This document shows, piece by piece, positions 28,652 to 51,307 of a DNA stretch of 51,542 bases. The DNA is from Rhodanobacter sp. C06 (GTDB lineage: Bacteria; Pseudomonadota; Gammaproteobacteria; Xanthomonadales; Rhodanobacteraceae). The stretch's first letter is position 1; every line of letters starts with the position of its first letter. The DNA is taken from assembly GCF_002001105.1 (NCBI RefSeq), contig NZ_MUNP01000035.1, forward strand, positions 1 through 51,542. Reading direction: 5' to 3'. The notes beneath the pieces were generated by a model that saw nothing but the letters and a program-made list of their open reading frames with translations, did no database searches and was not told the origin of the DNA. A program made the position numbers and the translations under genes.

Positions 28652-28671
28652 GCGTTCGCGCGCAATATCGA

Positions 28672-28701
28672 CGACCAGGGGCGCTTCGGCGCCCCTGGTC
28701 G
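28672..28701. terminator. Bidirectional terminator between prc and the sulfotransferase
   Basis: A 13-bp perfect stem (cgaccaggggcgc and its complement) closes a stable TTCG tetraloop, with a short T-run on the plus side. It sits exactly between two convergent genes. Confidence 0.85.
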
Positions 28702-28703
28702 TT

Positions 28704-30569
28704 TCAGGCGGTGTAGCCGAGCCGGGCTATCGTCGGCCGCAGCAGCGGCAGCACCGGCTCGAAATATTCGCGGTAGGCCTGCCAGCGGCCGACTGCACGG
28801 TCATGGATGCCGGCGGTGACCTGGGCGTAGCTGGGCGTGCTGATGAAGGCCTTGGCGCGCGCATGCTCGGCGTAGCGCGCCATCGGCGCGGGGTCGGCGA
28901 TGCCGAGGAAGCGCCCCAGTTGCGCCACGTGGCCGTCGAAGTCGCCGACCACGGCCTCGTAGCGCCACTCCAGCAGCTGCGGCGCGAACACCGCCACGTG
29001 CCGCTGCCACTGCTCGAACGCCTGCACGTAGCCGCGTGCGAGACGCGGCAGCGACGAGCACAGCACCATGAAGGCCGGCGAGCGGAACGACTGCATGTAA
29101 CAGCTGAGCAGCACGTCGCAGGGGTGCCGCAGGCACAGGATGATGCGCGCCTGCGGGAACAGCCGCATGATCATCGGCAGGCACAGCATGTTGAGCGGAT
29201 TCTTGTCCACCAACCGGCACGCGCCCGCGTCCGGCAGGACGCGCGCGACCATGCGGCCGTAGAGCGCGCGCAGCTGGTCCGCCTCCGCCGCGGTGAGCGT
29301 GGCGAGGTCCGCGGGATAGCGCTGGCCGGCCAGCTCCATGCGCTCGGTGAGTTCGTGGATGAAGGCGCGTTCGTCCATCGAGCGGAACGCCGGATGGGCG
29401 TCCAGCATCTGTTCCAGCAGCGTGGTGCCCGAACGCGGGAAGCCCACCACGAACACCGGGCTGTGCGCGGCGTCCGGCGCGGGCAGCGGCGACCAGCGCG
29501 CGACCTCGGCGGCCGGGAGGTCGTGGCGCAGCAGCTGCAGCGGCTGGCTGTCCGGCGCGAGCAGTTGCGGCACGATCTCGCGCGCGATCTCCAGTTGCGC
29601 CGCATGCGCGGTTTCCAGCGCCTGCCAGGCTGCGTGCCGTTCGCCTTGCCTGTCGCGGGCCGACGCCAACCCGAAGCCGGCGTTGGCGCGGGTCTCGTCG
29701 TCGCCGGCCGCGGCAAGCAGGCGCCGGTACAAGTCGGCTGCTTGCGCGTGGGCACCGGCACGCATGGCCAGCGCGGCATGCGCCTTCCAGCCATCGATGC
29801 GGGCCTGCGTGGCCTCCGCTGGCAGCGCTTCCAGCGCGGCCAGCGGCAAGGGCCGCAGCGCCTCATGCGCGGCGTCGAGCCGGTTGCCGCGCTCGTGCAG
29901 CAGCGCGCGCTGCGCCGCGATGCGCAGGCGCATTTCGGCTGCGGCCGCGGGCGCAGCCGGCAGCTGCGCGCGATCCAGTGTGCGCCAGGCCGCGTCCGGC
30001 CGGCCCAGCACGGCCAGCATCGAGGCCAGCAGCAGCGCCTGTTCCGCCGGCTGCGGCGGCCAGTCGGCAGCGCTATCCAACATCGCCTCCTGCCCGCTGT
30101 TGTCGCCACAGACGTAGCAGGCGTGCGCGGCCTGCAGCCGGGCGTCGACGAAGCCCGGCGCGAGCTGCACCGCTTCCAGCAGGCTGTCCCGCGCCTGCGG
30201 CCAGAGGCGCTGCTGCAGCTGGAGCAGCCCGAGGTTGTAATGCACCTCGGCGTCGCGCGGAGCCAGTGCCGCGGCGCGTTGCAGCGCCTGGGCGGCGGCC
30301 TCCGCATCGCCGGCCTCGCGTCGCGCCACGCCCAGGTTGTTCCAATAGGCGGACACCCCGGGGCGCAGCCGCGTGAGGCGTTCGAACGTGGCGGCCGCCG
30401 CGGCATGGCGCCCGCTGGCCTGTTGCGCCACGCCGAGCAGCAGCAGCACGTCCTCGCCATCCATGCCGGCGCCGGCGGCTTGCGCGGCGAGCGCGATCGC
30501 GCGCTCCATCTCGCCCGCGTCGCAGGCGCGGGCCATGGCATGGGCGAATTCGATGGTCGAGGTGGGCAT
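28704..30569 (-). CDS. TPR-repeat sulfotransferase-family protein
   Basis: This protein of about 621 residues is built of two parts. Residues 1 to about 330 are tetratricopeptide repeats (for example ATFERLTRLRPGVSAYWNNLG and APRDAEVHYNLGLLQLQ). Residues about 355-610 are a sulfotransferase domain, with the PAPS 5'-phosphosulfate loop FVVGFPRSGTTLLEQML and a 3'-phosphate segment near RIILCLRHPCDVLLSC. The acceptor is unknown, and related TPR-sulfotransferases may act on proteins or polysaccharides. I used the ATG at 30569. A GTG at 30596 in frame is an alternative. No signal peptide is present, so it is cytoplasmic. Confidence 0.82.
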   Translation of the reverse strand: MPTSTIEFAHAMARACDAGEMERAIALAAQAAGAGMDGEDVLLLLGVAQQASGRHAAAAATFERLTRLRPGVSAYWNNLGVARREAGDAEAAAQALQRAAALAPRDAEVHYNLGLLQLQQRLWPQARDSLLEAVQLAPGFVDARLQAAHACYVCGDNSGQEAMLDSAADWPPQPAEQALLLASMLAVLGRPDAAWRTLDRAQLPAAPAAAAEMRLRIAAQRALLHERGNRLDAAHEALRPLPLAALEALPAEATQARIDGWKAHAALAMRAGAHAQAADLYRRLLAAAGDDETRANAGFGLASARDRQGERHAAWQALETAHAAQLEIAREIVPQLLAPDSQPLQLLRHDLPAAEVARWSPLPAPDAAHSPVFVVGFPRSGTTLLEQMLDAHPAFRSMDERAFIHELTERMELAGQRYPADLATLTAAEADQLRALYGRMVARVLPDAGACRLVDKNPLNMLCLPMIMRLFPQARIILCLRHPCDVLLSCYMQSFRSPAFMVLCSSLPRLARGYVQAFEQWQRHVAVFAPQLLEWRYEAVVGDFDGHVAQLGRFLGIADPAPMARYAEHARAKAFISTPSYAQVTAGIHDRAVGRWQAYREYFEPVLPLLRPTIARLGYTA

Positions 30570-30605
30570 GCCGGCTCGGTTCGTGGCGCGCTGCACGAAT
30601 TATGC

Positions 30606-30640
30606 GCGAAGGGCCGCGAGTGCATCTCGCGGCCCTTCGC
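30606..30640. terminator. Stem-loop terminator after the TonB-dependent receptor
   Basis: A 15-bp perfect stem (gcgaagggccgcgag, 30606-30620; complement, 30626-30640) closes a 5-base loop, with an AT-rich stretch beyond it on the minus strand. It lies 28 bases after the receptor stop. Confidence 0.8.
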
Positions 30641-30667
30641 CCTACTGCATGAACAATGCGGCTGCGG

Positions 30668-33571
30668 TCAGAACTTCACGGTGGCGCGGGCCCAGTAGTA
30701 GCGGCCCAGGGTGTCGTAAGTGGCCGTGTCCACGTTGTAGTTCGCGCCGTTCTGGTAGACCAGCGGCGGAATCTTGTTGTTGAGATTGTCCACGCCAATG
30801 TCGAAGCGGGTGTGGATCGCCGGTACGGCGTAGCCGAGCTGGATCGAGTGGTATACCGCGCCGCCCATCGGCGCGTTGGCGCCGGTGGTGAAGTCGGCGT
30901 TGAGGTCGGTGAGCCGGTGGATGTAGCGGGTCTGCCACTGGGCGCTCCAGTGGCCCATGTTCCAGTTGAGCGTGGCCGTGCCGCGCCAGCGCGCGATGTT
31001 GCCGAACTGCTGGGTGTAGGTGCCCGCGTAGTTGATGGTCTGGGCGCCCGGCTGGCCCGGCGTGGCGTCGTTCTTGTAGGTCGAGGTGTAGCTGGTGTTG
31101 AGCCCGACCTTGAAATTGCCGGGGTTCACGCTGCCGAGGTTGAAGTGCGGGATCTGGTAGCCGACCGTGAAGTCCACGCCGGTGGTGCTCAGGTTGCCCA
31201 GGTTGACCACCGGGGTGTTGATGTAGAACACCGCGCCGGCCAGCTTGCTGGTGTTGTCGTAGCGGTGGATGTAGGAGCAGTACGGGCTGCCGTTGTTGGC
31301 GAAGCAGGAGTTCGCCACGGTCTGCGCGGTGATCGGCGTCAGCATGTCGGTCAGGTAGATGTGCCAGAAGTCGAGGCTGCTCGACAGCCCGGGCAGCGCC
31401 GAGGGGCTGTAGACGAAGCCGATGTCGACCGACTTGCCGTGCTCGGGCTTCAGCGAACTGCCGGTGGGCACCGCGCCGGAGTAGTACGACGTGACCTGCG
31501 CGATCGGGTTGCCGCCCCAGCCCGGCGGCACGTACTGGCAGGCGTTCGCATGCTGCGCCAGTTGCCCGCTGGTGAGGTTGATGCAGGGGTCGGACAGCAC
31601 CGGGCCGCCGATCGTGTAGCCGTCGTACAACTCGTCGAGGTTCGGCGCACGGAACACCTGGGACACCGTGCCGCGCACGAGCAGGTCGGCGATCGGGCGC
31701 CACTCGACGGCGATCTTCTTGTTGGTGGTGGTGCCGGTGGTGCTGTAGTCGGAACTGCGGATGCCCAGGTCGAGGTTGAGCGAGTAGGCCCAGGGCACGT
31801 TGCTCAGCAGCGGGATCAACGTCTCGGCGAAGAGTTCCTTCACGTTGTAGCTGCCGCGGCCCGGCGAGCCGCAGGCTTCCTGCAGGATCTGGCAGTTGCC
31901 GGTGGCGATGTCGAGGATCGCGTCGCTGGTCACGTCGTAGTTCATCGTCTGCTTGCGGTACAGGCCGCCCACCGAGAGCTGCATGGTGCCGGCCGGCAGG
32001 CTCCACAGGTCGCCGGAGGCGTCCAGCTGGAGCTGGCGCATGCTGTTGGTCATCGTGTAGACCGGGGTGTCGACGCCGGATTTCAGCGCGGCGGTCACCG
32101 ACGGATCGGCCTGGTTGAAGACGTTGACGCCGCTGTCGATCGCGGCCTGGAACGCGGCGATGTTGACCTCGTTGTAGTCGCGCTGGATGCGGTTGTGGTG
32201 GCCGTAGTCGATGATCGCGTCCCACGTCCAGCTGCTCTGCCCGAAGTTGCCGCGCAGTCCGGTCATGACCTGCGCGTTGGTGGTGGTGAAGGTGTGCAGG
32301 CGGGTGCCCAAGCCGGTGAGTCGCGTGTTGAATGCGTAGCCGCTGTTCGGGTCGCCGGGAATCCCGTTCGCGCTGAAGGTGACGCCGAACGGGTTGATCG
32401 GGTTGCTGGACAGCACGTGCCAGCCGTCGCCGACGCCGGTGGGCGCGGGCGCGTCCTGGCCGCTGGACACGGTGCGGTTGTAGAACATGTCCGCGAAGAA
32501 CTTCAGGTTGTCGCTCAGCTGGTAGTTGCCGAGCACGAAGCCGTCGGTGCGTTCCTGCTCGGTCTGGATGTAGTTGTAGGCGTTGTAGTTGTAGGTGTCG
32601 CCGGCGCCGCCGTAGCAGCGGTAGTCGCCCAGCGCGCTGCCGTTGCCCTGCTGCAGGGTGAGGTAGGCGGTGCCGTTGGGCTTGAGCGCGCAGCCGTACT
32701 GGTTGGCGATCGAGGAGGGCACCTGGATGCGCCCGGTGGGGATGGTGCCGGAGCCGGCCGCGGTGACCACGCCGCTGGACAGGTAGAGCTGGTGCGCCGA
32801 GAAGCTGCGCTTGGTCGCCAGCACCGAGTCGTACTTGTTGTAGTTCAGGCCGGCGACGATGTTGCCCTTCTCGCCGCTGTCGCCCACCGTGAAGTTGAAG
32901 CCGCGGCGCTGGCCGTCGCCATGGCTGGAGATGCCGTCGTTGAGGCTGAACTCGGCGCCCTTGTAATCCTTGCGCAGGATGAAGTTGACCACGCCGCCGA
33001 TCGCATCGGAGCCGTACACCGTCGAGGCGCCCTCGGCCAGCACGTCGACCCGCTCGATCATGTTCTGCGGGATCATGTTGATGTCCTGGTTGGCCATGCG
33101 CTGGCCGTCGATGAGCACCAGGGTGCGGGTCTCGCCGAGGCCGCGCAGCGAGACGCGCGCGGCGCCGTCACCGCCTTCCAGCAGCGGGCTGGCGCCGCCG
33201 CCGCCGTTGCTGTTGTTCTGGGTGTTGGTCGCATTGCCGGAGATGCTGGGCAACTGCTGCAGCACGTCGCCCAGGGTCGGTTTGCCGGAGTTGTCGATGT
33301 TGCTGCGATCGATCGTCACCACCGGGCTGGAGGTCTCGGCGTCCACGCGCCGGATCAGCGAGCCGGTGACGACCATGCCCTGCAGGGTCTTCGCCTTGCT
33401 CTGGGACGGCGCCTGCGTGGCGGATTGCTGGGTGTCGGACTGCTGCGTTCCGGATGGCTGGGCGCCGGCGTTCGCCGCGTCCTGGGCCTGGAGCGTGCCG
33501 GCCACGGCGAGGGCGCCGACGGTCAGGGCCAGTCGTACGGCCAGCGACAAGCGGTTCATGTCATGTTTCAT
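30668..33571 (-). CDS. TonB-dependent outer-membrane receptor
   Basis: This 967-residue protein has a signal peptide (AVRLALTVGALAVAGTLQA). A Gln/Ser-rich linker follows, then a TonB-box-like MVVTGSLIRR and the plug domain (about residues 65-190: TLGDVLQQLPSISGN, VSLRGLGETRTLVLIDGQRM, DVLAEGASTVYGSDAIGGVVNFI). The rest is a large beta barrel ending in the outer-membrane signature WARATVKF. It imports an unknown ligand using TonB energy. There is no adjacent anti-sigma or ABC transport gene to suggest the substrate. GGGGAAA lies before the ATG at 33571. The open frame further upstream is Arg-rich shadow. Confidence 0.93.
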   Translation of the reverse strand: MKHDMNRLSLAVRLALTVGALAVAGTLQAQDAANAGAQPSGTQQSDTQQSATQAPSQSKAKTLQGMVVTGSLIRRVDAETSSPVVTIDRSNIDNSGKPTLGDVLQQLPSISGNATNTQNNSNGGGGASPLLEGGDGAARVSLRGLGETRTLVLIDGQRMANQDINMIPQNMIERVDVLAEGASTVYGSDAIGGVVNFILRKDYKGAEFSLNDGISSHGDGQRRGFNFTVGDSGEKGNIVAGLNYNKYDSVLATKRSFSAHQLYLSSGVVTAAGSGTIPTGRIQVPSSIANQYGCALKPNGTAYLTLQQGNGSALGDYRCYGGAGDTYNYNAYNYIQTEQERTDGFVLGNYQLSDNLKFFADMFYNRTVSSGQDAPAPTGVGDGWHVLSSNPINPFGVTFSANGIPGDPNSGYAFNTRLTGLGTRLHTFTTTNAQVMTGLRGNFGQSSWTWDAIIDYGHHNRIQRDYNEVNIAAFQAAIDSGVNVFNQADPSVTAALKSGVDTPVYTMTNSMRQLQLDASGDLWSLPAGTMQLSVGGLYRKQTMNYDVTSDAILDIATGNCQILQEACGSPGRGSYNVKELFAETLIPLLSNVPWAYSLNLDLGIRSSDYSTTGTTTNKKIAVEWRPIADLLVRGTVSQVFRAPNLDELYDGYTIGGPVLSDPCINLTSGQLAQHANACQYVPPGWGGNPIAQVTSYYSGAVPTGSSLKPEHGKSVDIGFVYSPSALPGLSSSLDFWHIYLTDMLTPITAQTVANSCFANNGSPYCSYIHRYDNTSKLAGAVFYINTPVVNLGNLSTTGVDFTVGYQIPHFNLGSVNPGNFKVGLNTSYTSTYKNDATPGQPGAQTINYAGTYTQQFGNIARWRGTATLNWNMGHWSAQWQTRYIHRLTDLNADFTTGANAPMGGAVYHSIQLGYAVPAIHTRFDIGVDNLNNKIPPLVYQNGANYNVDTATYDTLGRYYWARATVKF

Positions 33572-34136
33572 GCGCTTTCCCCGATGAGTTGCTGCAGTGG
33601 GCCGCCTGCCATTGCGGCACGCGGAATCGTCTGCGCGAATGCGGTGCACGCCGAGACGCGCACCGGGCGCGGCGGGAACGTGGAGCGACGGCGTTATTGC
33701 GTGCCCGGGCGCACCGGCGGGTGCGCGGGGCCGGATCGCACGGAGGGTGGAGCGGGGTGGTCGAGTCGCGAAACCTGCTGCATTGCGTTCTCCCCGAAGT
33801 GCATACGTGACGACGGCGGACAAGCTGCGACGACCGCGCCATCCCGGCGCGAGCGCCGGGCGACGCTGCCGCATCGCCCTCCCCCGAGGCATGCGGCGTC
33901 GCCCGAAGTCCGTCTCCCGTGAAGCGGAACAAGACGAGACAGGGGCCCGTGCTCCCTCGCCGTGCCGGCGGCCATCCGGTTCCTGCAGGCGGTGGCGTGG
34001 GGACGCGAGCCGCATTCAGCCTAGCATGATCTTGCGAACCTGCATGGTCTTGCTGCCGCACCGAAGCTTGACCGCGCTGCAGCAGCGCGCGAGCGTGTCG
34101 CCATTCGCGCGTTGGATGCCTGCCGGGAGCGTCGCC
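33572..34136. other. 565-base region without a supported gene
   Basis: This stretch separates the divergent receptor and DUF4126 genes. Open frames here are in-frame extensions of the two neighbours, with Arg/Ala/Pro-rich composition typical of GC-rich noncoding DNA. I see no tRNA, no REP and no convincing promoter, although the promoters of both neighbours should lie here. Confidence 0.6.
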
Positions 34137-34745
34137 ATGGATCCGTTGTCGAACGTCGCACTGGCCGGGGGCCTGGCCTGGGCCAGCGGTTTCCGCCTGT
34201 ACGCCACGGTGTTCGTGGCCGGCCTGCTGGGGCGGCTGGGCTGGGTGCACCTGCCGCCCGGGCTGGTAACGCTTGCCGACACCTGGGTGCTGGTGGTGTC
34301 CGGCGTGCTGGCGCTGGGCGAATTCCTTGCGGACAAGGTGCCCGCGTTCGACAGCATATGGGACGCGCTGAACACCTTCGTGCGCATCCCGGTGGGCATG
34401 CTGCTGGCGTGGGGCGTGTTCCGCGAATCGGGCGCGGGCGCGCAGGTGGCGGCAGCCCTGCTCGGCGGCGCGCTCACCGCGGGTACGCATCTGGCAAAGA
34501 GCGGCGGCCGTGCGCTGATCAACACCTCGCCCGAACCCGTGAGCAACTGGACCGCCAGCGTGGGCGAGGACGTCACCTGGCTGGGCGGGCTGTGGCTGAT
34601 GTGGAAGCACCCGCTGGTGTTGCTGGTGTTGCTGGCGCTGTTCGTGCTGCTGTTGTGCTGGCTGCTGCCGAAGCTGGTGCGCGGCCTGCATTCGCTGCGG
34701 CAGCGGCTGCGCCGGATCGGCGCCTTTCTCTCCGGTACAGGCTGA
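34137..34745 (+). CDS. DUF4126 family membrane protein
   Basis: This 202-residue protein begins MDPLSNVALAGGLAWASGFRLYATVFVAGLLGRLG, the typical start of DUF4126 proteins. About four to five membrane segments follow, including LVLLVLLALFVLLLCWLLP near the C-terminus. The family function is unknown. The ATG at 34137 has GGGAG 7 bases upstream. A longer in-frame extension to 33597 is low-complexity shadow. A REP pair follows the stop. Confidence 0.85.
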   Translation: MDPLSNVALAGGLAWASGFRLYATVFVAGLLGRLGWVHLPPGLVTLADTWVLVVSGVLALGEFLADKVPAFDSIWDALNTFVRIPVGMLLAWGVFRESGAGAQVAAALLGGALTAGTHLAKSGGRALINTSPEPVSNWTASVGEDVTWLGGLWLMWKHPLVLLVLLALFVLLLCWLLPKLVRGLHSLRQRLRRIGAFLSGTG

Positions 34746-34772
34746 CGGTTATCCCCACCGGTGATTGTTTTT

Positions 34773-34849
34773 GTAGGAGCGTACCCTGTGCGCGAATGCT
34801 CCGGCATTTGATCGAAGCCAAAGCCATCGCGCACAGGGTGCGCTCCTAC
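34773..34849. repeat. 77-bp GTAG REP pair (copy 2 of the dispersed element)
   Basis: GTAG at 34773 and its complement CTAC at 34846-34849 bracket two palindromes and a spacer. The sequence and the spacer (tttgatcgaagcc) match the element at 13874-13951 with about ten differences. It lies between the convergent DUF4126 and aminopeptidase genes. Confidence 0.85.
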
Positions 34850-34853
34850 GGGT

Positions 34854-36584
34854 TTACGGCTTCGCCGCCTTGCGTTGCTGCTTCATCCACTGCTGGAATG
34901 CGGTGATGCGCGGTTCGTCGCGCAGCAGTACCGAGTGCGGATCGATCGTCACCAGTGCGCCGGCAGGCACCGCGAGGCTGCCGTGGCCGCCTTCCATAGC
35001 CACGGTGTGCACGTTGCCGTCCACCTGGACCTCCACCGGCATCGGGAACGGCAGGTTCTGCGGCGCCTGCCAGCGCAGGTCCAGGGTGTCGCCGCGGCGC
35101 TGCACGTCGAGTTTCGGCAGCGCGGCCTGGTAGAGATACACCTTGAAGAACCAGTCGTAGTCCTTGCCGGTCACCCGGTCCACGATGCGCATGTAGTCGG
35201 CGCTGGTGCGGTATTGCGGCGTGAAGTTGCCGGGCTTCGGGTCGGGCCGGCCGTAGACCAGTTCGCGGATGCTGGCGTAGAACGCCTGGTCGCCGATCAG
35301 GTGATGGAGCGTCTGCAGCATCAGCGCGCCCTTGTTGTAGATGTCCTGGCCGGGGCCGCCGCGCGATTCGTCGTAGACCGCCTCCTCGGTGCGCGGCGTG
35401 CCGGACACCACCGGGTACTCGTTCTCGATCATCATTCGCAGCCGGTGCAGCCAGGCGTAGTACATCGCGTCGCCGTCGAGCCAGCGCGCGTACAGCGGTT
35501 GCATCAAGGTGGCGAACCCCTCGTGCAGCCACATGTCGTCCCAGTTCGCGTTGGTCATCTGGTTGCCGAACCACTCGTGCGCGAACTCGTGCTGCAGCAG
35601 CCAGTCGAAGCCGCTGCCATCCTTTGCGTAGTGGTTGCCGTAGGCATTGATGGTCTGGTGTTCCATGCCCTTGTACGGGGTTTCCACCACGCCCATCTTC
35701 TCGTCGCCCCAGGGGTAGGGGCCGATCTTCGCCTCGAAGAAATCCAGCAGCTGCGGGAACTCGGCGAACAGCGCCTTCGCTTGCGCCTCCTCGCCGGGCA
35801 GGTACCAGTAGTGCAGCGGGATCGTATTGCCGTAGCGGCTGTGGTACTCGCCCTTCAACTCCTGGTACGGCCCCACGTTGATCGAGATGGCGTAGGTGGT
35901 GGGGTGCTTGGCGCGCCAGTGGTACGTGCGCGTGTTGCCCTGTTCGCTCACGCCGACCAGCACGCCGTTGCCGGGTGCCACCAGCGGCTTGGGCACGGTG
36001 ACGTAGAGGTCGACCAGATCCGGCTTGCCGTCGGGTTGGTCGATGCACGGCCAGAACAGGTCGCAGCCTTCGCCTTCCACCGCGCTGCCCACCCAGGGCT
36101 GGCCGTCCTTGGTGTGGCTCCACACGAAGCCGCCGTCCCACGGCGCCTTCTTCGCCACGTGGGGCTTGCCGCCGTAGGCGATGGTGGCGACGACTTTGTC
36201 GCCCTTGGCCACGGCGTGCGGCAACGGGATGCGCAGGCGGCCCTCGGGATTGCTCCATGCACCCTTGGTCAGCACCTTGCCGTCCACACTGATCGCGCTC
36301 ACCGGCAGGTTGCGGTCCAGGTCCACCAGCAGCACGTCGGTGGGCGCCAATGCGCTGAAGGTGAGCGTGGCGCTGGCCTCGATGCTCTGCGTGGCGGGCT
36401 TCACCGCGATGTGCAGTTCGGCGTGGTCGAAGTGCACGCGCTTCTGCTCGGCCGGCATCGGCGTGCCGGAGTCCTTGGTCAGTGCGGTGAGCGGCGACTG
36501 ACTGGGCGCGGTGGCTTGGGCCAGGGTCGAACCGGCGATGCCGAGGCCGAGGGCGAGGCCGAGCGCGAGCAGGGTGGGGCGCAT
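34854..36584 (-). CDS. Secreted M1-family metallo-aminopeptidase
   Basis: This 576-residue protein has a signal peptide (LALGLALGLGIAGSTLAQA), so it is periplasmic or exported. The zinc site is H332-E-F-A-H336 with the third ligand E355 in LHEGFAT, the exact 18-residue spacing of the gluzincin HExxH-(X18)-E motif. The exopeptidase loop reads G-M-E-H-Q at about 306-310, where most M1 enzymes have GxMEN. It has only the first two M1 domains plus a short C-terminal part, shorter than PepN (about 870 residues). Peptide nutrient processing is a likely role. Confidence 0.88.
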   Translation of the reverse strand: MRPTLLALGLALGLGIAGSTLAQATAPSQSPLTALTKDSGTPMPAEQKRVHFDHAELHIAVKPATQSIEASATLTFSALAPTDVLLVDLDRNLPVSAISVDGKVLTKGAWSNPEGRLRIPLPHAVAKGDKVVATIAYGGKPHVAKKAPWDGGFVWSHTKDGQPWVGSAVEGEGCDLFWPCIDQPDGKPDLVDLYVTVPKPLVAPGNGVLVGVSEQGNTRTYHWRAKHPTTYAISINVGPYQELKGEYHSRYGNTIPLHYWYLPGEEAQAKALFAEFPQLLDFFEAKIGPYPWGDEKMGVVETPYKGMEHQTINAYGNHYAKDGSGFDWLLQHEFAHEWFGNQMTNANWDDMWLHEGFATLMQPLYARWLDGDAMYYAWLHRLRMMIENEYPVVSGTPRTEEAVYDESRGGPGQDIYNKGALMLQTLHHLIGDQAFYASIRELVYGRPDPKPGNFTPQYRTSADYMRIVDRVTGKDYDWFFKVYLYQAALPKLDVQRRGDTLDLRWQAPQNLPFPMPVEVQVDGNVHTVAMEGGHGSLAVPAGALVTIDPHSVLLRDEPRITAFQQWMKQQRKAAKP

Positions 36585-41843: not shown

Positions 41844-41987
41844 CGGACTCCTCCTGTCGGATGCAAGATCGGCGCGCCTTCGACTGCTGGCGAGGCGCCG
41901 CGGTTCCCCGCAACCGGCGTGGCCGTCGCGACGCTCGCGCCACTTTACATCGGGCTTCCCCGGGGGTAACTTGCCATCTATTCGCAA

Positions 41988-42003
41988 CCACAACATCTTG
42001 TGT
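41988..42003 (+). promoter_or_regulatory. Candidate NrdR box upstream of nrdJa
   Basis: The 16 bases ccacaacatcttgtgt match the NrdR-box consensus (acaCwAtATATwGtgt type) in most positions and form an imperfect palindrome. NrdR commonly represses ribonucleotide reductase operons. Pairs of boxes are the norm; I found only this one with confidence. It lies about 190 bases before nrdJa. Confidence 0.5.
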
Positions 42004-42192
42004 CCGCTCTCGAGCGATCGGCCAAGCACTGGTGGGGTGGCGCCTTTCGAGGGGGCGGGTCCGGCAGTCGGTCAACATGGCGTTGCCGCGGCGTCCAGCC
42101 CGCCACGCGCCGCAGCCGATGGTGCGGACCCATTCAACAACAGCAGTCAAAAAGACAAGGCCGCAAGGCCGCACTGGGAGGTCAGGAAGCCG

Positions 42193-44355
42193 ATGAGCAC
42201 AGCGCGTGCGCCAGTCACGGGTTCGGAACTGCAACGCGACGCCGCCACGGCGATCCCGCTGCAGCCCGCCTCGCAGGACATCTGGGACAAGAAATACCGC
42301 CTGCGTACCAAGGCCGGCGAACCGGTCGACGCCGACATCGACGGCACCTGGCAGCGCGTCGCGCGTGCACTGTCCGAAGTGGAAACCACGCCCGAGCTGC
42401 GCGAGCACTGGAACGAACGCTTTCTGTGGGCGCTGCGTCGCGGCGCGATCCCGGCCGGCCGCATCACCTCCAACGCCGGCGCGCTGGAACACAAGCCCGC
42501 CACCTCCACGATCAACTGCACCGTGTCCGGCACCATCCGCGACTCGATGGACGACATCCTGGAGAAGGTGCACGAAGCCGGCCTCACGCTGAAGGCCGGC
42601 TGCGGCATCGGCTACGAGTTCTCCACGCTGCGTCCGCGCGGCGCGTACGTGTCGGGCGCCGGTGCCTACACTTCCGGCCCGCTGTCCTTCATGGACATCT
42701 ACGACAAGATGTGTTTCACCGTCTCGTCCGCCGGCGGTCGCCGCGGCGCGCAGATGGGCACGTTCGACGTGTCGCATCCGGACGTGAAGGAATTCATCCG
42801 CGCCAAGCGCGAGGATGGCCGCCTGCGCCAGTTCAACCTCAGCCTGCTGGTCACCGACGGCTTCATGCAGGCGGTGGAGCACGACCACGACTGGCCGCTG
42901 GTGTTCCCGGTGCACGTCAAGGAACAGGACGAAGTCGATCTCGACGATCCCGCCAAGGTGGTGTGGCGCGAGTGGCCCACCCACGAGAACTACGTCGACC
43001 GCGAAGACGGCCTGGTCGCCTGCAAGATCTACGGCCACATCCGCGCGCGGCACCTGTGGGACATGATCATGGTCTCCACGTACGACTACGCGGAGCCCGG
43101 CTTCATCCTGATCGACAAGGTCAACGAGATGAACAACAACTGGTGGTGCGAGCACATCCGCGCCACCAACCCGTGCGGCGAGCAGCCCTTGCCGCCCTAC
43201 GGCTCCTGCCTGCTCGGCTCGGTCAACCTCACCACCTTCGTGCGCGATCCGTTCGGGCCTAAGGCGCGCTTCGACTGGGACGAGTACCGCGAGGTGGTGA
43301 AGATCTTCACCCGCATGCTCGACAACGTGGTGGAGATCAACGGCCTGCCGCTGCAGCAGCAGCGCGACGAGATCATGGGCAAGCGCCGCCACGGCATGGG
43401 CTTCCTGGGCCTGGGCAGCACGATCACCATGCTCAAGCACCGCTACGGCAGCGCCGAGGCGGTGGCGTTCACCGAGGACGTCTCGCGCGAGATGGCCGTG
43501 GCCGGCTGGGAAGTGGCGCTGGATCTGGCGAAGGAGAAGGGCCCCGCGCCCATCCTCGCGAAGGACTACGTCATCACCGGCGACATGCTGCGCCGCCGCC
43601 CGGAAATGGTGCGCGACGGCTGGAAGGTCGGCGATGCGATCCCCGGCCGCGTGCTGCATGCGAAGTACAGCCGCTACATGCAGCGCGTCGCCGAGGTGGC
43701 GCCGAACCTGGTGGCCGAGCTTGCCGAGACCGGCGCGCGCTTCACCCACCACAGCTCGATCGCGCCCACCGGCACCATCTCGCTGTCGCTGGCCAACAAC
43801 GCCTCCAACGGCATCGAGCCCAGCTTCGCCCACCACTACTCGCGCAACGTGATCCGCGAAGGCAAGAAATCGAAGGAGAAGGTCGAGGTCTACAGCTACG
43901 AGCTCTTGGCCTACCGCGCACTGATCAACGCGAACGCGCTGCCGTTCTCCGACGATCCTCTGACCAAGCTGCCGGACTACTTCGTGGCCGCCGACGACAT
44001 CGGCCCGAAGCAGCATGTCGACATCCAGGCGGCCTCGCAGAAGTGGATCGATTCGTCGATCTCCAAGACCGCGAACGTGCCCACCGACTACCCCTACGAA
44101 GACTTCAAGGACATCTACTTCTACGCCTACAAGCAGGGCCTGAAAGGCTGCACCACCTTCCGCTTCAACCCTGCTGCCTTCCAGGGCGTGCTGGTGAAGG
44201 AGGCCGACCTTGCGAGCACCCTCTACCACTTCGAACTGGAGGACGGTAGTGTTATCGAACTTCGAGGCAATGAAGAAGTGGAATACGACGGCGAGCTGCA
44301 TACCGCGGCGAACCTGTTCGATGCCTTGAAGGAAGGGTATTACGGCAAGTTCTGA
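42193..44355 (+). CDS. nrdJa: Class II (adenosylcobalamin-dependent) ribonucleotide reductase, NrdJa
   Basis: This 720-residue catalytic part of NrdJ carries the redox Cys109 (STINCTVSG) and the finger-loop motif N326-P-C328-G-E330, where C328 is the thiyl-radical cysteine. It also has TFDVSHPDVKEFI, HHSSIAPTGTISL and a C-terminal end at YYGKF. It lacks the C-terminal cysteine pair that regenerates the active site; that is in NrdJb, encoded 750 bases downstream. It reduces ribonucleotides using vitamin B12 and needs no oxygen. I use the ATG at 42193 (AGGAAG upstream). The extension to 41971 is shadow and covers the NrdR-box region. No B12 riboswitch was recognised in the leader. Confidence 0.92.
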   Translation: MSTARAPVTGSELQRDAATAIPLQPASQDIWDKKYRLRTKAGEPVDADIDGTWQRVARALSEVETTPELREHWNERFLWALRRGAIPAGRITSNAGALEHKPATSTINCTVSGTIRDSMDDILEKVHEAGLTLKAGCGIGYEFSTLRPRGAYVSGAGAYTSGPLSFMDIYDKMCFTVSSAGGRRGAQMGTFDVSHPDVKEFIRAKREDGRLRQFNLSLLVTDGFMQAVEHDHDWPLVFPVHVKEQDEVDLDDPAKVVWREWPTHENYVDREDGLVACKIYGHIRARHLWDMIMVSTYDYAEPGFILIDKVNEMNNNWWCEHIRATNPCGEQPLPPYGSCLLGSVNLTTFVRDPFGPKARFDWDEYREVVKIFTRMLDNVVEINGLPLQQQRDEIMGKRRHGMGFLGLGSTITMLKHRYGSAEAVAFTEDVSREMAVAGWEVALDLAKEKGPAPILAKDYVITGDMLRRRPEMVRDGWKVGDAIPGRVLHAKYSRYMQRVAEVAPNLVAELAETGARFTHHSSIAPTGTISLSLANNASNGIEPSFAHHYSRNVIREGKKSKEKVEVYSYELLAYRALINANALPFSDDPLTKLPDYFVAADDIGPKQHVDIQAASQKWIDSSISKTANVPTDYPYEDFKDIYFYAYKQGLKGCTTFRFNPAAFQGVLVKEADLASTLYHFELEDGSVIELRGNEEVEYDGELHTAANLFDALKEGYYGKF

Positions 44356-44400: not shown

Positions 44401-45012
44401 ATGTCCATCGATATCGATTTCGAAGTGAAAGACACCGTCACGCCGGACGCCCCTGCGGCGCCGGTCGTCGCCGCTCCGGTCGCCGCACCCGCGCCGGCCA
44501 TGCCGGCCGCCGCGCCGAAGAAGGCAGCGAAGAAGGCCGCCAAGAAGAAGGCTGCGCCGAAGAAGGCCGCGGCCAAGAAGCCCGCCGCGAAGAAGGCGGC
44601 AGCGAAGAAGGCTCCGGCCAAGAAGAAGGCCGCGGCGAAGAAGACCGTGAAGAAGGCCGCCGCCAAGAAGACGGCGAAGAAGGCCGTGAAGAAGGCCGCC
44701 GCCAAGAAGACGGCGAAGAAGGCCGTCAAGAAGGCCGCGAAGAAAGTCGTGAAGAAGGCCGCCACCGCGAAGAAGGCGGTGAAGAAGGCCGCGAAGAAGG
44801 TTGCCGGCAAGGCGAAGAAAGTCGCCAAGAAAGCCGCAAAGAAGGTCAGCAGCAAGAAGACGGCGAAGAAAGCCGCTCCCAAGAAGACAGCCAAGAAGGC
44901 TGCCGTGAAGAAGGCCGCCAAGGCGGTCAAGAGGTCCACTGCCAGCAAGAAGGCGAGCGTCAAGTCGGCGAAGAAACCCGCCGCCAAGAAGGCCGCCCGC
45001 AAGAAGAAGTAA
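44401..45012 (+). CDS. Lysine/alanine-rich histone H1-like protein
   Basis: This 203-residue protein begins with about 25 residues that are acidic or mixed (MSIDIDFEVKDTVTPD). Ala/Pro-rich sequence follows, and from about residue 40 to the end it is almost entirely KKAA-type repeats. It is strongly basic and resembles the C-terminal tail of eukaryotic H1 and bacterial AlgP/HC2-like proteins, which bind DNA and condense the nucleoid. The gene has short repeated units that may vary in number between strains. It lies between nrdJa and nrdJb, 45 and 90 bases from them, on the same strand. Confidence 0.85.
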   Translation: MSIDIDFEVKDTVTPDAPAAPVVAAPVAAPAPAMPAAAPKKAAKKAAKKKAAPKKAAAKKPAAKKAAAKKAPAKKKAAAKKTVKKAAAKKTAKKAVKKAAAKKTAKKAVKKAAKKVVKKAATAKKAVKKAAKKVAGKAKKVAKKAAKKVSSKKTAKKAAPKKTAKKAAVKKAAKAVKRSTASKKASVKSAKKPAAKKAARKKK

Positions 45013-45102
45013 GTCCCGCCACGGCCGGCCCGGCCTCGTGCCGGGCCGGCCGTGCTTTCTCCGCGCCGCGCGCCGCCATCCATCCAGGAAGAACACCACA
45101 CC

Positions 45103-45870
45103 ATGGCGATCAAGATCGAAAAGAAGATCAAGGGCTACAACGTCGTCAAGCCCGAGGACAAGGCCGCGCCGGCCGCCGCACCCGAAAAGGCCAAGGCCGC
45201 CGAGCCGCGCCAGGCCGAAGTCATCCAGATGCACGAGAGCCTGGAGCGTCCCGAAACGCTGATCGGCTCCACCTTCAAGATCAAGTCGCCGCTGTTCGAG
45301 CACGCGCTGTACGTGACCATCAACGACATCGTGCTCAACGCCGGCACCAAGCACGAGCAGCGCCGCCCCTTCGAGATTTTCATCAACTCGAAGAACATGG
45401 ACCACTTCCAGTGGATCGTGGCGCTCACCCGCATCCTCTCCGCCGTGTTCCGCAAGGGCGGCGACGTCACCTTCATCGTGGAAGAGCTGAAGGCCGTGTT
45501 CGACCCCCGCGGCGGCTACTTCAAGGCCGGCGGCGTCTACATGCCCAGCATCGTCGCCGAGATCGGCGGTGTGATCGAGCAGCACATGAAGAACATCGGG
45601 CTGATCCACGACCCGGAGATGAGCGATTCGCAGCGTGCGCTGATCGCCGAGAAGCGCGCCGCCTACGAGGCGGCCAGCGCAAAAAAAAACTCTGATGCCG
45701 GCACCTCCGCTCCCGTAGGAGCGGCTTCAGCCGCGATCACCCCGGCCGAATCCGAAGCAGGCAGCTTCCCGCCCGGCGCCACGCTGTGCCATAAGTGCAA
45801 CACGCAGGCGCTGGTGCTGATGGATGGGTGCCAGACTTGCTTGAATTGTGGGTATTCGAAGTGCGGGTGA
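45103..45870 (+). CDS. nrdJb: Class II ribonucleotide reductase C-terminal component NrdJb
   Basis: This 255-residue protein is recognised from MAIKIEKKIKGYNVVKPED, the TSCPD-type core (IGSTFKIKSPLFEHALYVTIND, FEIFINSKNMDHFQW, AVFRKGGDVTFIVEELKAVFDP) and a C-terminal cysteine-rich tail with CHKC and CQTCLNCGYSKC. In Pseudomonas aeruginosa the class II enzyme is likewise made of NrdJa and NrdJb, and the NrdJb tail supplies the cysteines that re-reduce the active site. The linker between core and tail contains an A9 run (45681-45689) and a complete GTAG REP hairpin that is translated as PVGAASAAIT. A strong terminator follows. Confidence 0.9.
   Translation: MAIKIEKKIKGYNVVKPEDKAAPAAAPEKAKAAEPRQAEVIQMHESLERPETLIGSTFKIKSPLFEHALYVTINDIVLNAGTKHEQRRPFEIFINSKNMDHFQWIVALTRILSAVFRKGGDVTFIVEELKAVFDPRGGYFKAGGVYMPSIVAEIGGVIEQHMKNIGLIHDPEMSDSQRALIAEKRAAYEAASAKKNSDAGTSAPVGAASAAITPAESEAGSFPPGATLCHKCNTQALVLMDGCQTCLNCGYSKCG
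45715..45738 (+). repeat. GTAG REP hairpin inside the nrdJb coding region
   Basis: GTAG at 45715-45718 followed by gagcggcttcagccgcgat is nearly identical to the first half of the REP at 40400. It sits in frame, so it adds residues without stopping translation. No inverted partner half is seen nearby. Confidence 0.85.
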
Positions 45871-45895
45871 GCGTTGTTCACTAACGATTCGATAT

Positions 45896-45926
45896 AAAAG
45901 CGGCGGCTTAGCTCTGCCGCTTTTTT
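45896..45926 (+). terminator. Rho-independent terminator after nrdJb
   Basis: A 9-bp stem (aaaagcggc, 45896-45904; gccgctttt, 45916-45924) with a loop of 11 bases runs into six T residues. It separates the nrdJ transcript from the NACHT gene. A possible -10 element for the NACHT gene (TATAAA, 45893-45898) overlaps its left arm, but no -35 at good spacing is seen. Confidence 0.88.
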
Positions 45927-45955: not shown

Positions 45956-48247
45956 ATGGAAAAGCAAAAGATCGAGAGAGTTGCGAGCCTGAAGGATGAG
46001 GTTAAAGATTTTCACCCGGTGCTGGCTGCGCTATTTAATAAGCTCCCGAGTATCATTTCGGTTGAATATCGCCAGGGGCCGCACGAGATGGGGGCGGATT
46101 TCGTGCTTACCAAATTCGACGAAACGTTGACAAGCAACGATTACATAGGAGTTATAGTTAAAACGGGGACCATCAAACAAGGACATCAGGAGATAGAGCG
46201 TCAAATTGGCGAGTGTGAGCTGGGGAGGAAAGTTGAGGGTGGAAAGAAAACAATTATATTGAACGAAATATGGGTCGTTTGCAATGAAGGGATAACGGCG
46301 AATGCCCAGGATGTGATACATCACAAGTACGCTAATAAAAACATAAAATTTCTTAGCGGAGAGAAGATATCGGAACTCATTGATAAGTACTTCCCACAAT
46401 TTTGGGCTCAAGTCGATGTTAAAATTGGGGAATACTTGGAGGAGGTGGAGCAAAAATCCAGGGGGATGGCTTTTGGCACAGGGCTTGTGGCGACGAAAAA
46501 TGTAGCCGATATTGGCTACAACTTTATCCGTGTCGAGTCGGTCGGGAAGAATTTTAGGCGCCAAAAGAAGAAAGAGATTAAGCGGGATTTACGGCCGCTG
46601 TCTACAGCTCATCAGTTTCTTTTGATCGAAGGCATGATGGGTATGGGGAAGTCTACCGCCTTGGGGCAGTTTGCTCGTCTCCTTGCTTCGCCTGAAGTTT
46701 TCAATACAGATGGTCTCGTGCCCATCCTTATGCCTATGAAAGAGGCTTTCACCGAGTTTGGCGCTGACTTAGAGAAAATTGTGAGTCGAGTTAGAACGCG
46801 GCTGGGTCAATGTACTGCGTCTACTGGTTTTGTTGTCATGTTGGATGCGCTGGATGAGCTAGACCTTTCGCCGGAAGATCGGCTCGAGTTGCTAATAAGA
46901 GTCCAAGTCACGGCTCAAACACAGGGGTGTCGGGTTATTGTTACCTCCCGCCCCTTGATGGACCCATTGCTGGAACGGGAAGTGGAAAAGCGCTTCGATA
47001 GATACGAGATGACCCAGCTTACTATTCCGCAGGTGGTAAAGCTTGTCGATCTGGTCTGTCAAAATAGGTCAACCTCAGAAAAGCTGCGTAAAGATTTGGA
47101 CAAGTCGCAGTTGTTTAGGTCGTTGCCAAAAACGCCGATTTCAGCAATTTTGTTGGCGAAAATCTTGGATGAAAACGTCCAAGAGATTCCATCAACGATG
47201 ACAGAGCTGTATTCGAAGTACATGGAACTAGTGCTCGGTCGATGGGATATGAGCAAGTCTCTCCAGTCCCAGATGGAGTATGACGTAATTCTTAATGTTT
47301 CCATCCAAGTGGCAAGAATGATGATTGACAACTCGTTGGATCGCATTGCCGCTTCGGAAGTGCGGTCGATGTGTGAGAACTATATTAAGGGAAGGAACCT
47401 CAAGGTCGACTGCAACTCTGTCTCGAAAAAAATGCTTGGAAAGCGCGAACTGTACTTCGTTTCACCTTTTGACGAGACTGTGACTTTTAATCACCGAACT
47501 TTTGCGGAGTATCTTTATGCTTTGGGTTTGGAAAGAGTAGGTAAGTTTGAGATTGGTGATAAGGTCTACGATCCATATTGGACAGCGACATATTTTTTTG
47601 TGTTCGGTCTTCGCAGGGATGCGCCTGAGTTAATCGAGGAGCTCGACAAAGTCCGGTTACCTAATGAGATTGGTAGGCTGTTTAAGATCAATAATCACGC
47701 GGGGTTCTTGCTTGCCGCTTATCTCACTCCGTATGCTGTTATTCAATCTTCGCTCAAAATAGCTATCGGTCAAGCTGCCGCGCTTTTGCGTGAGGCATAT
47801 TCAAACGCAAATAGCCCTCTTGCGGAGTTTAGCGAAATTCAGCTGTTGTGTATTATTACCTGTACACTTTGTAACGCCTACGGTTATGATTATTTCAAGC
47901 CGGCTCTGTACGAAATTTCAGTCGACCTATATTCATCTCCTGATCTTAAAGATCGGATGCTAGAAATTTTTTTCGTGAACAGTGCGCTGGCGGCGTCCTC
48001 TGATGGTAAGGCTTTCGATACATTGATTAGCAGTTATGGTCCTGAGATTCCCCTGCCTTTGCAGGTCGGCATTATGGCGCAAGCCGAAGGTTGCGTGGGT
48101 AACTCTGGTATTCTCGATAAATACATAAGGAATTTCCACAAAAAGCTTAAGGGCAATCCTGGCCTCCGGCTCGGATTAACGGAGCTCGTCGAAACTCCAA
48201 TTAGTAAGAAAAAAGCGAAGATGGTGTCAGGGGCAATTCAAGCGTAG
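45956..48247 (+). CDS. NACHT-type STAND NTPase with N-terminal REase-like domain (candidate anti-phage protein)
   Basis: This 763-residue protein has an N-terminal domain (about 20-150) laid out like a restriction endonuclease-like fold: E37, D48 in GADFVL, then K69 in GVIVKTG followed by a Gln/Glu-rich helix. The acidic/Gln position two before K69 is I67, so activity is uncertain. The NACHT NTPase (about 220-430) has Walker A EGMMGMGKST (K232), Walker B VVMLDALDEL (D297-D300-E301) and a sensor VTSRP (330-333). FNHRTFAEYLYAL (511-523) is the usual end-of-NACHT motif. The rest to 763 is helical and probably senses the trigger. GGGGGAAGG precedes the ATG by 5 bases. Codon and base use are clearly AT-richer than all neighbours, a sign of transfer. 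The gene stands alone between a terminator and the CHAP gene. Bacterial NACHT proteins with such effectors defend against phage. Confidence 0.88.
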   Translation: MEKQKIERVASLKDEVKDFHPVLAALFNKLPSIISVEYRQGPHEMGADFVLTKFDETLTSNDYIGVIVKTGTIKQGHQEIERQIGECELGRKVEGGKKTIILNEIWVVCNEGITANAQDVIHHKYANKNIKFLSGEKISELIDKYFPQFWAQVDVKIGEYLEEVEQKSRGMAFGTGLVATKNVADIGYNFIRVESVGKNFRRQKKKEIKRDLRPLSTAHQFLLIEGMMGMGKSTALGQFARLLASPEVFNTDGLVPILMPMKEAFTEFGADLEKIVSRVRTRLGQCTASTGFVVMLDALDELDLSPEDRLELLIRVQVTAQTQGCRVIVTSRPLMDPLLEREVEKRFDRYEMTQLTIPQVVKLVDLVCQNRSTSEKLRKDLDKSQLFRSLPKTPISAILLAKILDENVQEIPSTMTELYSKYMELVLGRWDMSKSLQSQMEYDVILNVSIQVARMMIDNSLDRIAASEVRSMCENYIKGRNLKVDCNSVSKKMLGKRELYFVSPFDETVTFNHRTFAEYLYALGLERVGKFEIGDKVYDPYWTATYFFVFGLRRDAPELIEELDKVRLPNEIGRLFKINNHAGFLLAAYLTPYAVIQSSLKIAIGQAAALLREAYSNANSPLAEFSEIQLLCIITCTLCNAYGYDYFKPALYEISVDLYSSPDLKDRMLEIFFVNSALAASSDGKAFDTLISSYGPEIPLPLQVGIMAQAEGCVGNSGILDKYIRNFHKKLKGNPGLRLGLTELVETPISKKKAKMVSGAIQA

Positions 48248-48327
48248 TGCTGCTACTGTCCTGCTGCTCACCCACGAATTGATTTCGACGCTCAGCTCTT
48301 CGAGACTTGCCTGGTGGAGGACGCCCG

Positions 48328-48690
48328 ATGCCATGGAACAAGAACGCAGCCGTCACCCATGCCGACGACCACGCGCGGCGCCACAGCACGGGCAATTGCG
48401 CGCGATATGTCCGGGAGGCGATCGACGCCGGCGGCGTCGTGCTGGGGCATACGCACTATGCGAAGAACTATGGCCCCGTCCTGGCCGCGTCGGGGTTCCA
48501 GCCGATCCACGGCGTACCGCAGAAGGGGGATGTCGTCGTGATCCAGCCGGCTCCCGGGCATCCTGCCGGGCACATGGCCATTTTCGACGGGGCGAACTGG
48601 GTCTCCGACTTCAAGCAGCTGCACGGCCTTTATCCCGGCCCCGCGTACCGAAGTGCCCGACCGGCGTACATTGTCTATCGCCACCCGTGA
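48328..48690 (+). CDS. CHAP-domain amidase, likely antibacterial effector
   Basis: This 120-residue protein is one CHAP/NlpC-P60-like domain with the catalytic Cys24 in HSTGNCARYVREAI and His82 in PAGHMAIFDG, and a polar partner at N90 or D94 in ANWVSDFKQ. It has no signal peptide although its target would be peptidoglycan. That pattern fits small type VI secretion (Tae) amidase effectors, which are injected into rival cells. GGAGG lies 7 bases before the ATG at 48328. The next gene, 8 bases on, encodes a secreted protein suited to be its immunity partner. No type VI structural genes are in the window. Confidence 0.75.
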   Translation: MPWNKNAAVTHADDHARRHSTGNCARYVREAIDAGGVVLGHTHYAKNYGPVLAASGFQPIHGVPQKGDVVVIQPAPGHPAGHMAIFDGANWVSDFKQLHGLYPGPAYRSARPAYIVYRHP

Positions 48691-48698
48691 GGTCCGGA

Positions 48699-49157
48699 GT
48701 GAACAAGCGTCTATTCGTGGCGTTCGTCGCATGGCTGATGCTGGCGGCGACCTTGCTGCCGATGCCCGTGCTGGCTGCCGGCAAGGCCAATGATCCGGCG
48801 GCGCAGACGCGCGCCTTCTACGCCTGGTTCATCGGCCACGACACGGATGCCGGCTATCCGCTGGCCAGTCCCGATATCTACCGCTACGTGGCGAAGGAGA
48901 CCGTGGACAGGTTGCGCGAGGACTATCGCCGCGGCGGACCGCCGGGCGGCGTCGATTATTTCCTGAAGGTGCAGGACTACGACACGCGCGACTGGCTGGC
49001 GCACATCGTGACGCAACCCGCGATCATGCTCGGCACGGTGGCTGTCGTCCCGGTGATGCTGGGTTCGACGGACAAGGTCGGCGTGCTGGTCTTCCTCCAG
49101 CGCAGTGGTGGAAGCTGGAAGATCATCAAGGTGGACGACACCCGCGGCTATCCGTGA
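48699..49157 (+). CDS. Secreted DUF3828-like protein, possible immunity to the CHAP amidase
   Basis: This 152-residue protein has a signal peptide (residues 1-24, ending VLAAG) and a mature domain with the DUF3828-type pattern FYAWFIGHD, VDYFLKVQDYD..DW and a WKIIKVDD end. It starts at GTG 8 bases after the CHAP gene, with GGTCCGGA before it, so the two are an operon. Its periplasmic location opposite a cytoplasmic peptidoglycan amidase is what is expected of an immunity protein that protects the producer. The function is inferred from the pairing only. Confidence 0.7.
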   Translation: MNKRLFVAFVAWLMLAATLLPMPVLAAGKANDPAAQTRAFYAWFIGHDTDAGYPLASPDIYRYVAKETVDRLREDYRRGGPPGGVDYFLKVQDYDTRDWLAHIVTQPAIMLGTVAVVPVMLGSTDKVGVLVFLQRSGGSWKIIKVDDTRGYP

Positions 49158-50524: not shown

Positions 50525-51307
50525 TCACTTGCCAGGTCCAGGCCAGCGCATTCCGCGATACGAGTCCGCCACCACCCATGCCGCCGCCGTCAGCACCCAG
50601 GTCGCATACGTCTCGCCCCAGTTGAAGGCGCTGATATGGCCGGCGGCGACCATGGGCAGCCAGATCAGCAGCAGGAACAAGCCCATCATCAAGGCCGAGA
50701 GATTGGCGGCCAGCCGGGCGAGCACGTTGGAGAGGATCGCCGCACCGGCGGCAAGGTAGGCGCCACCGGTGAAGTAAGCCCAGAACACCGGTGCGTGCAG
50801 CCAGTGGGGAATCAGTGGAGCGGTGAGGTTGAGATAGACGAAGTGCGAGAAGCCGAAGGCGATCAACGCCAGGCCGTAGAGCACGCGCGCCATGCGCAGG
50901 CCCCGGTCGCCGACGGCGAAAGCCAGCCGCCGCCGGTCTGTGTCGGTGGCGAACCATGCATGCAGTACCCATGCGGCCGCCACGATCACCGCCATCTCGC
51001 CGCAATATTGGTACGAACCTTCCGTGAGCGGTGCCTGCGCGATCAGCGGCAGCTTGAACACCAGCAGCCACAACAGCGCATAGAAAAACAGCACGCGCGC
51101 GGCCAGCGCAGTCGAGCGCGGCCAGCACAGGCCGAGGCCACATGCCAGCGAAACCACGGCGCAGAGACCGGCCAGAAGCTTCGCGGCCGGCACGTGATCG
51201 AACACCGGCTGCCATATCACGGTGAATCCGCCCTCGATCAGGCCCAGGATACCGAGGGCGACCAGGGTCGCGGCAAACACGGCATGTCCTGTGCTGGCGA
51301 TACGCAT
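50525..51307 (-). CDS. DoxX-like integral membrane protein
   Basis: This 260-residue hydrophobic protein has about seven or eight membrane segments. Its second half (RMARVLYGLALIAFGFSHFVY, then APVFWAYFTGGAYLAAGAAILSN) matches the DoxX-like pattern. Function is unknown; such proteins have been linked to quinone or stress biology without a general role. Its stop overlaps a possible GTG start of the next gene, so both are probably co-transcribed. Confidence 0.75.
   Translation of the reverse strand: MRIASTGHAVFAATLVALGILGLIEGGFTVIWQPVFDHVPAAKLLAGLCAVVSLACGLGLCWPRSTALAARVLFFYALLWLLVFKLPLIAQAPLTEGSYQYCGEMAVIVAAAWVLHAWFATDTDRRRLAFAVGDRGLRMARVLYGLALIAFGFSHFVYLNLTAPLIPHWLHAPVFWAYFTGGAYLAAGAAILSNVLARLAANLSALMMGLFLLLIWLPMVAAGHISAFNWGETYATWVLTAAAWVVADSYRGMRWPGPGK

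Follow-up and report, generated by a model that had tools for sequence, protein, structure and literature searches.

Among bacterial NACHT (bNACHT) proteins, the closest described systems to the gene considered here are bNACHT25, from the Rac prophage of Escherichia coli, and bNACHT32. In the published study (PMC12169576), both are assigned to clade 6, with an NCH1 domain and an N-terminal PD-(D/E)XK DNase, and their identity is given as 81%. The same study reports that the D48A change abolishes defence and DNA degradation, that an H506L mutant of bNACHT25 is hyperactive, that phage detection by bNACHT25, an NLR-related protein of bacteria, requires DnaJ, and that its sensing was traced to a host chaperone, not to a bound phage molecule. 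Here, we analysed a stretch of 51,542 nucleotides from Rhodanobacter sp. C06 (contig NZ_MUNP01000035.1), called the window at its full length, in which a gene at 45956..48247 of the forward strand codes for a NACHT NTPase of 763 residues. An earlier note, made from the letters of the DNA, had singled it out as a candidate phage-defence gene. Going by sequence similarity, this gene is not an unplaced candidate but a relative of bNACHT25, whose action against phage in E. coli has been tested in published work. The product of the window gene is very probably an immune receptor of the bNACHT25/bNACHT32 type that acts against phage as a single protein, with a nuclease effector. A one-gene system gained by horizontal transfer, it most likely shreds DNA when phage is sensed.

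Kinship with bNACHT25 and bNACHT32

The open reading frame (ORF) runs from its ATG start through 763 codons without internal stop, and the protein matches only itself in its own genome (4.14 Mb, 82 contigs). Compared with bNACHT25 (WP_001702659.1, a record found in exact form in E. coli), 289 of 758 aligned positions are identical over residues 1-746 (38% identity, 58% positives, E=2e-172), and the C-terminal helical region aligns with short gaps only. Three parts succeed each other from the N- to the C-terminus, a PD-(D/E)XK nuclease, a NACHT ATPase and NCH1, and bNACHT25 has the same set. The Pfam profile search confirmed the NACHT assignment of the earlier note (PF05729, residues 222-364, 28.9 bits for a cut-off of 26.7) and revealed a domain that this note does not mention, NCH1 (PF22728, residues 584-753, 47705..48214 of the forward strand), at 227 bits for a cut-off of 27 (E=1.3e-67). 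Given the full-length similarity and the presence of NCH1, NACHT and nuclease domains, the protein is, by these sequence comparisons, a new and divergent member of the bNACHT25 family. It is ordinary in kind, since it is a distant member of a family already tested in E. coli, although 62% of its residues differ from those of bNACHT25.

We compared bNACHT32 (WP_057688292) through a plasmid copy of Enterobacter kobei, which is 82% identical to bNACHT25 and 38% to the window protein. The protein accessions of its VapC and VapB neighbours stand in one unbroken series with that of bNACHT32, so this copy is probably a bNACHT32 allele. Like the window gene, bNACHT25 and bNACHT32 are single genes for about 750 residues, with D48 and K69 in a PD-(D/E)XK domain, NACHT, NCH1 and the histidine of an FNHR/FLHR motif. 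Yet, the window gene is chromosomal, behind nrdJ in a GC-rich host, whereas bNACHT25 and bNACHT32 lie in prophage or plasmid. The closest sequence that we found is a NACHT protein of Ferrimonas aestuarii, which is 42% identical over its full length and has NCH1 at 225 bits. We know of no experimental test of that protein.

Two other groups of defence proteins were compared. A large C-terminal sensor region defines Avs proteins. The chain of Avs4 (AVAST type 4), bound to a phage portal according to the title of its PDB entry, has 1534 residues there, whereas the window protein has 763 and ends in NCH1. It thus lacks the length (about 1500 residues in Avs4) and the large C-terminal sensor of Avs. 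The clade 14 proteins bNACHT02, bNACHT11 and bNACHT12 share the central NACHT module with the window protein. The study describes them as having a SNaCT domain at the end and no readily discernible effectors (PMC12169576). The window protein combines an NCH1 C-terminus with a predicted nuclease domain at the N-terminus.

Switch motifs and the N-terminal domain

The NACHT core (residues 222-364, 46619..47047, forward strand) includes Walker A K232, the Walker B motif DALDEL (D297, D300, E301) and TSRP (R332), and is followed by the FNHRTFAEYL motif (47486..47515, forward strand). K232, D297, D300, E301, R332 and H513 are invariant in a family alignment of five sequences, where K232 aligns with K226 of bNACHT25 and H513 with H506, the residue whose change to leucine makes bNACHT25 hyperactive. 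The claim of an intact gene with these four motifs therefore stands. In a PDB search the full-length profile gave nine matches, the best being an 'AAA family ATPase' and NLRC4. All of them fell inside profile positions 186-413 and left the N- and C-terminal domains unreached.

The N-terminal domain (about residues 1-155, 45956..46420, forward strand) is predicted to be a PD-(D/E)XK nuclease of the Mrr-like kind, with D48 and K69 as the putative catalytic pair. An AF2 (AlphaFold2) model of residues 1-175 takes up a restriction-endonuclease fold, as the earlier note had expected, and the fold matches of the modelled domain are AspBHI, MspJI, FokI, LlaBIII and Avs4. Sequence searches of the PDB gave six chance-level matches with the profile of the N-terminal domain (E 0.42-0.84) and three matches with the window protein alone (E 0.35-0.96), so the evidence for the fold comes from the model. 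The Mrr_cat family scores above its cut-off in the relative from E. kobei (23.0 for a cut-off of 21), under it in bNACHT25 (17.0) and without match in the window protein.

Residue conservation was assessed over 13 rows, 12 of which possess the N-terminal domain and 10 of which are close family rows, the window's own among them. E15, E44, D48 and K69 are invariant in all 12 rows with the domain. D48 aligns with D48 of bNACHT25, and K69 carries the same number in both proteins. Hence, two thirds of the E37...D48...K69 layout initially proposed are borne out. The remaining residue is glutamate in 8 of the 10 family rows, isoleucine in the Ferrimonas protein and histidine in a homologue from another genus of the same family (genome G492), and we have rejected E37 as a catalytic third acid. 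The window protein would be expected to have nuclease activity, as its tested relative does.

A rare gene of foreign composition

The gene looks foreign and has a patchy distribution. As stated in the earlier note, it is AT-rich in a GC-rich chromosome, with a GC content of 46.1%, the remainder of the window having 68.8%. At third codon positions (GC3) it stands at 51%, versus 89% in nrdJ and 87% in the neighbouring TSCPD gene. The family genes of Enterobacter, Pseudomonas, Ferrimonas and E. coli also lie 13-16 GC points under the flanks fetched with them, which makes AT-richness a property of the family and not of this insertion alone.

Full-length homologues were found in none of 60 relatives, the only other match, in G056, being a partial one at 28%. 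Of 369 genomes sampled from the class, four have a match (the own genome and three with partial matches), and NCH1 occurs in the own genome only (1/369). Among 233 genomes of the family NCH1 occurs in two, the own one and G492, and the weak partial matches in G056, G232, G254 and G091 were not counted as family. The G492 homologue (764 residues, L065:5935-8229) lies in low-GC DNA just behind a gene of 1256 residues, which we take to be the B12-dependent mutase fusion icmF.

On mobile elements, 6 of 72,556 plasmid records match, two with full-length matches and both of these on conjugative plasmids. The plasmid proteins of Kosakonia, Deinococcus and Malaciobacter served only as distant rows, a Gloeocapsa match was left out, and a Pfam scan of the Deinococcus and Malaciobacter proteins found no NCH1 in these two. 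A search of 5,426 E. coli genomes with the Enterobacter gene gave matches in 18, of which 17 have at least 80% of the query, and in the three regions opened the gene sits among genes of Rac-type prophages. An alignment query against IMG/VR led to 12 confirmed loci out of 48, some partial or broken. A first viral scan with a single-sequence query had given no relative among 7 candidate stretches, and none of 50,697 records of a phage collection matched the window protein or bNACHT25.

Trigger, effector and alternative readings

We propose a mechanism in which the link to phage defence and to DnaJ is carried over from the tested relatives, and oligomerisation from the STAND family in general. 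At rest, the NACHT module would be kept nucleotide-bound and OFF. Upon infection, the helical C-terminal part that includes NCH1 would sense a change in the cell, one that is DnaJ-dependent in the E. coli relatives. The NACHT module might then oligomerise and bring the N-terminal PD-(D/E)XK domains together, and these would cut DNA whatever its origin, so that the infected cell would halt growth or die ahead of phage release.

Several observations weigh against this interpretation. PADLOC-DB 2023 has no match for the window protein, and NCBIfam has two matches far under their cut-off, one of them to a model named 'anti-phage protein', which scores 13 bits for 790 required. The N-terminal domain has no Pfam match, and none of the eight Pfam families with E values up to 1 has its best match within the first 190 residues. 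The adjoining window genes are no known defence genes according to Pfam, and we therefore speak of a variable site and not of a defence island around the gene. The wider tree is poorly resolved. As 6 of its 10 inner branches are open and long branches meet, we used it only for the nearest rows and for the enterobacterial group. Finally, an identity of 38% leaves room for another trigger. It is indeed quite possible, though not what we would expect first, that the protein has the same ancestry and the same nuclease effector but responds to something other than a DnaJ-linked change, e.g. a directly bound phage protein. In the tree, bNACHT25 groups with the Enterobacter copy (support 97/100) to the exclusion of the window protein, and the rows closest to the latter by path are those of Ferrimonas and an IMG/VR sequence (L043). 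Two clade 14 bNACHT proteins are described in the study as working without DnaJ (PMC12169576). The alignment of the C-terminal helical region with that of bNACHT25, interrupted merely by short gaps, speaks against such a different trigger.

The effector itself was put in doubt by the earlier note, in which isoleucine at position 67, in place of the classical glutamate or glutamine, hinted at a diverged or non-cutting domain. We find isoleucine or valine at this position in 10 of 10 close family rows, among them the window's own row and that of a sequence nearly identical to bNACHT25, while the two distant rows with the domain have glutamine in one case and valine in the other. The doubt falls because the same residue occurs in a nuclease shown to work, that of bNACHT25, for which the study describes D48-dependent DNA degradation (PMC12169576). 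Hence, we have rejected I67 as a mark of inactivity and, with D48, K69, E15 and E44 all retained, a non-cutting nucleic-acid binder appears very improbable. We give even less credit to a housekeeping or regulatory STAND protein of the genus. The gene does lie directly behind two core genes, nrdJ and TSCPD, and has their orientation, as such a protein might, but its rarity already contradicts this idea, and so do the foreign composition and the carriage of its relatives by prophages or plasmids. The earlier interpretation is thus upheld in part, keeping a probable defence-type NACHT protein with a predicted nuclease fold and losing both the suspicion raised by I67 and the role given to E37.

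The variable site behind nrdJ

The B12-dependent ribonucleotide reductase of the window is split into a catalytic part (41971-44355) and a TSCPD/zinc-ribbon part (45052..45870, forward strand), the latter being the split C-terminal part. Between them lies a Lys/Ala-rich histone-like gene (44401-45012). The TSCPD gene is the left flank of the site. A DoxX-like gene (50525..51307, reverse strand; Pfam match under cut-off) is its right flank. DNA similarity to 11 same-genus regions ends at 45866-45873, a few bases from the TSCPD stop codon. In the closest one, G010, which is 96.7% identical over the TSCPD gene, similarity resumes at window position 49078, and a DUF6680 gene of 248 residues stands between the two points. 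Two genes (48307-49157) separate the NACHT gene from the resumed similarity in the window, one CHAP-like (just under cut-off) and one of DUF3828, and G010 retains no more of the DUF3828 gene than its last part. None of 13 relatives has the NACHT gene at this site.

The spacing between TSCPD and the DoxX-like gene varies from about 94 bp (G013), 0.3 kb (G007), 1.9 kb (G008) and 2.4 kb (G012) to 4.7 kb in the window, 8.5 kb (G004) and 17.4 kb (G003), the remaining eight of 15 genomes being without a close DoxX copy or without TSCPD. As a control, upstream gene pairs were chosen mechanically, with upstream DNA from 11 of the 13 relatives, and the Lys/Ala-rich gene inside the nrdJ locus gave no score. 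Among relatives with both genes, pairs are adjacent in 7/7, 8/8, 6/8, 8/10, 10/10 and 8/11 cases. For the last pair, the three relatives without adjacency have 2.2-2.3 kb of additional DNA. Another pair, 26402-28704, is disrupted as well, being kept in one (G009) of eight relatives with the first gene, so the TSCPD site is not unique but shares its variability with a second place in the stretch. The pair 28704-30668 is kept in 1/1 relatives and 30668-34854 in 0/1. Window positions 28704-34015 form a second accessory block.

Site content was scanned through one or two chosen ORFs in 10 of the 13 relatives (G006, G007 and G013 left out), eight by PADLOC and Pfam and two (G002, G014) by Pfam only. 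Four of the ten have defence- or toxin-like genes among these ORFs: the PADLOC candidate pair PDC-M53A/B (G001), HipA (G008), type I restriction HsdR (G005) and a RES domain (G014). The others have an IS3-type transposase (G002), DUF6680 (G010), an FAD monooxygenase (G009), LytTR (G003), GNAT (G012) or, in G004, no family match. In G002, G007 and G008, a shared GGGGATACCC...CCCATAAG repeat block directly follows the TSCPD stop (L037:3597-3662, L040:5013-5078, L041:6218-6261). It resembles a mobile-element end, and with Tn7-like transposon ends we note a resemblance only and claim no identity.

The gap before the NACHT gene contains a terminator-like hairpin with a T-run (45896..45924, forward strand), about 30 bases before the start. 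Its z is -2.8, 2 of 200 shuffles folding equally well, and the 2.9 kb searched has 5 terminator-like pattern sites for 3.4 expected by chance, so that by pattern they do not exceed chance. No sigma-70-like promoter was found in the TSCPD-NACHT gap, which would make read-through or an unrecognised promoter likely. In G001, G002 and G014, nrdJ similarity starts only at residue 370 in the fetched stretch and the next upstream gene is 2.2-2.3 kb further away. The nrdJ frame of G014 has a LAGLIDADG-like sequence (GFLRGFFDADGSVQG, by eye). Together these features suggest that nrdJ probably carries an intein in the three genomes. The window nrdJ frame is continuous.

A listing of published titles had none on nrdJ as an integration hotspot. 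We consider it rather unlikely that defence genes land at the TSCPD-DoxX spot throughout the genus and, at once, that its NACHT receptor branches deeply within the bNACHT25 family and watches a cellular process other than the DnaJ-linked one. The variable site behind nrdJ is a place to seek more defence genes in the genus. Furthermore, with its full-length identity of 38% to bNACHT25 and its non-enteric, GC-rich host, the window protein would be well suited for testing whether NCH1 proteins guard chaperones as a rule.
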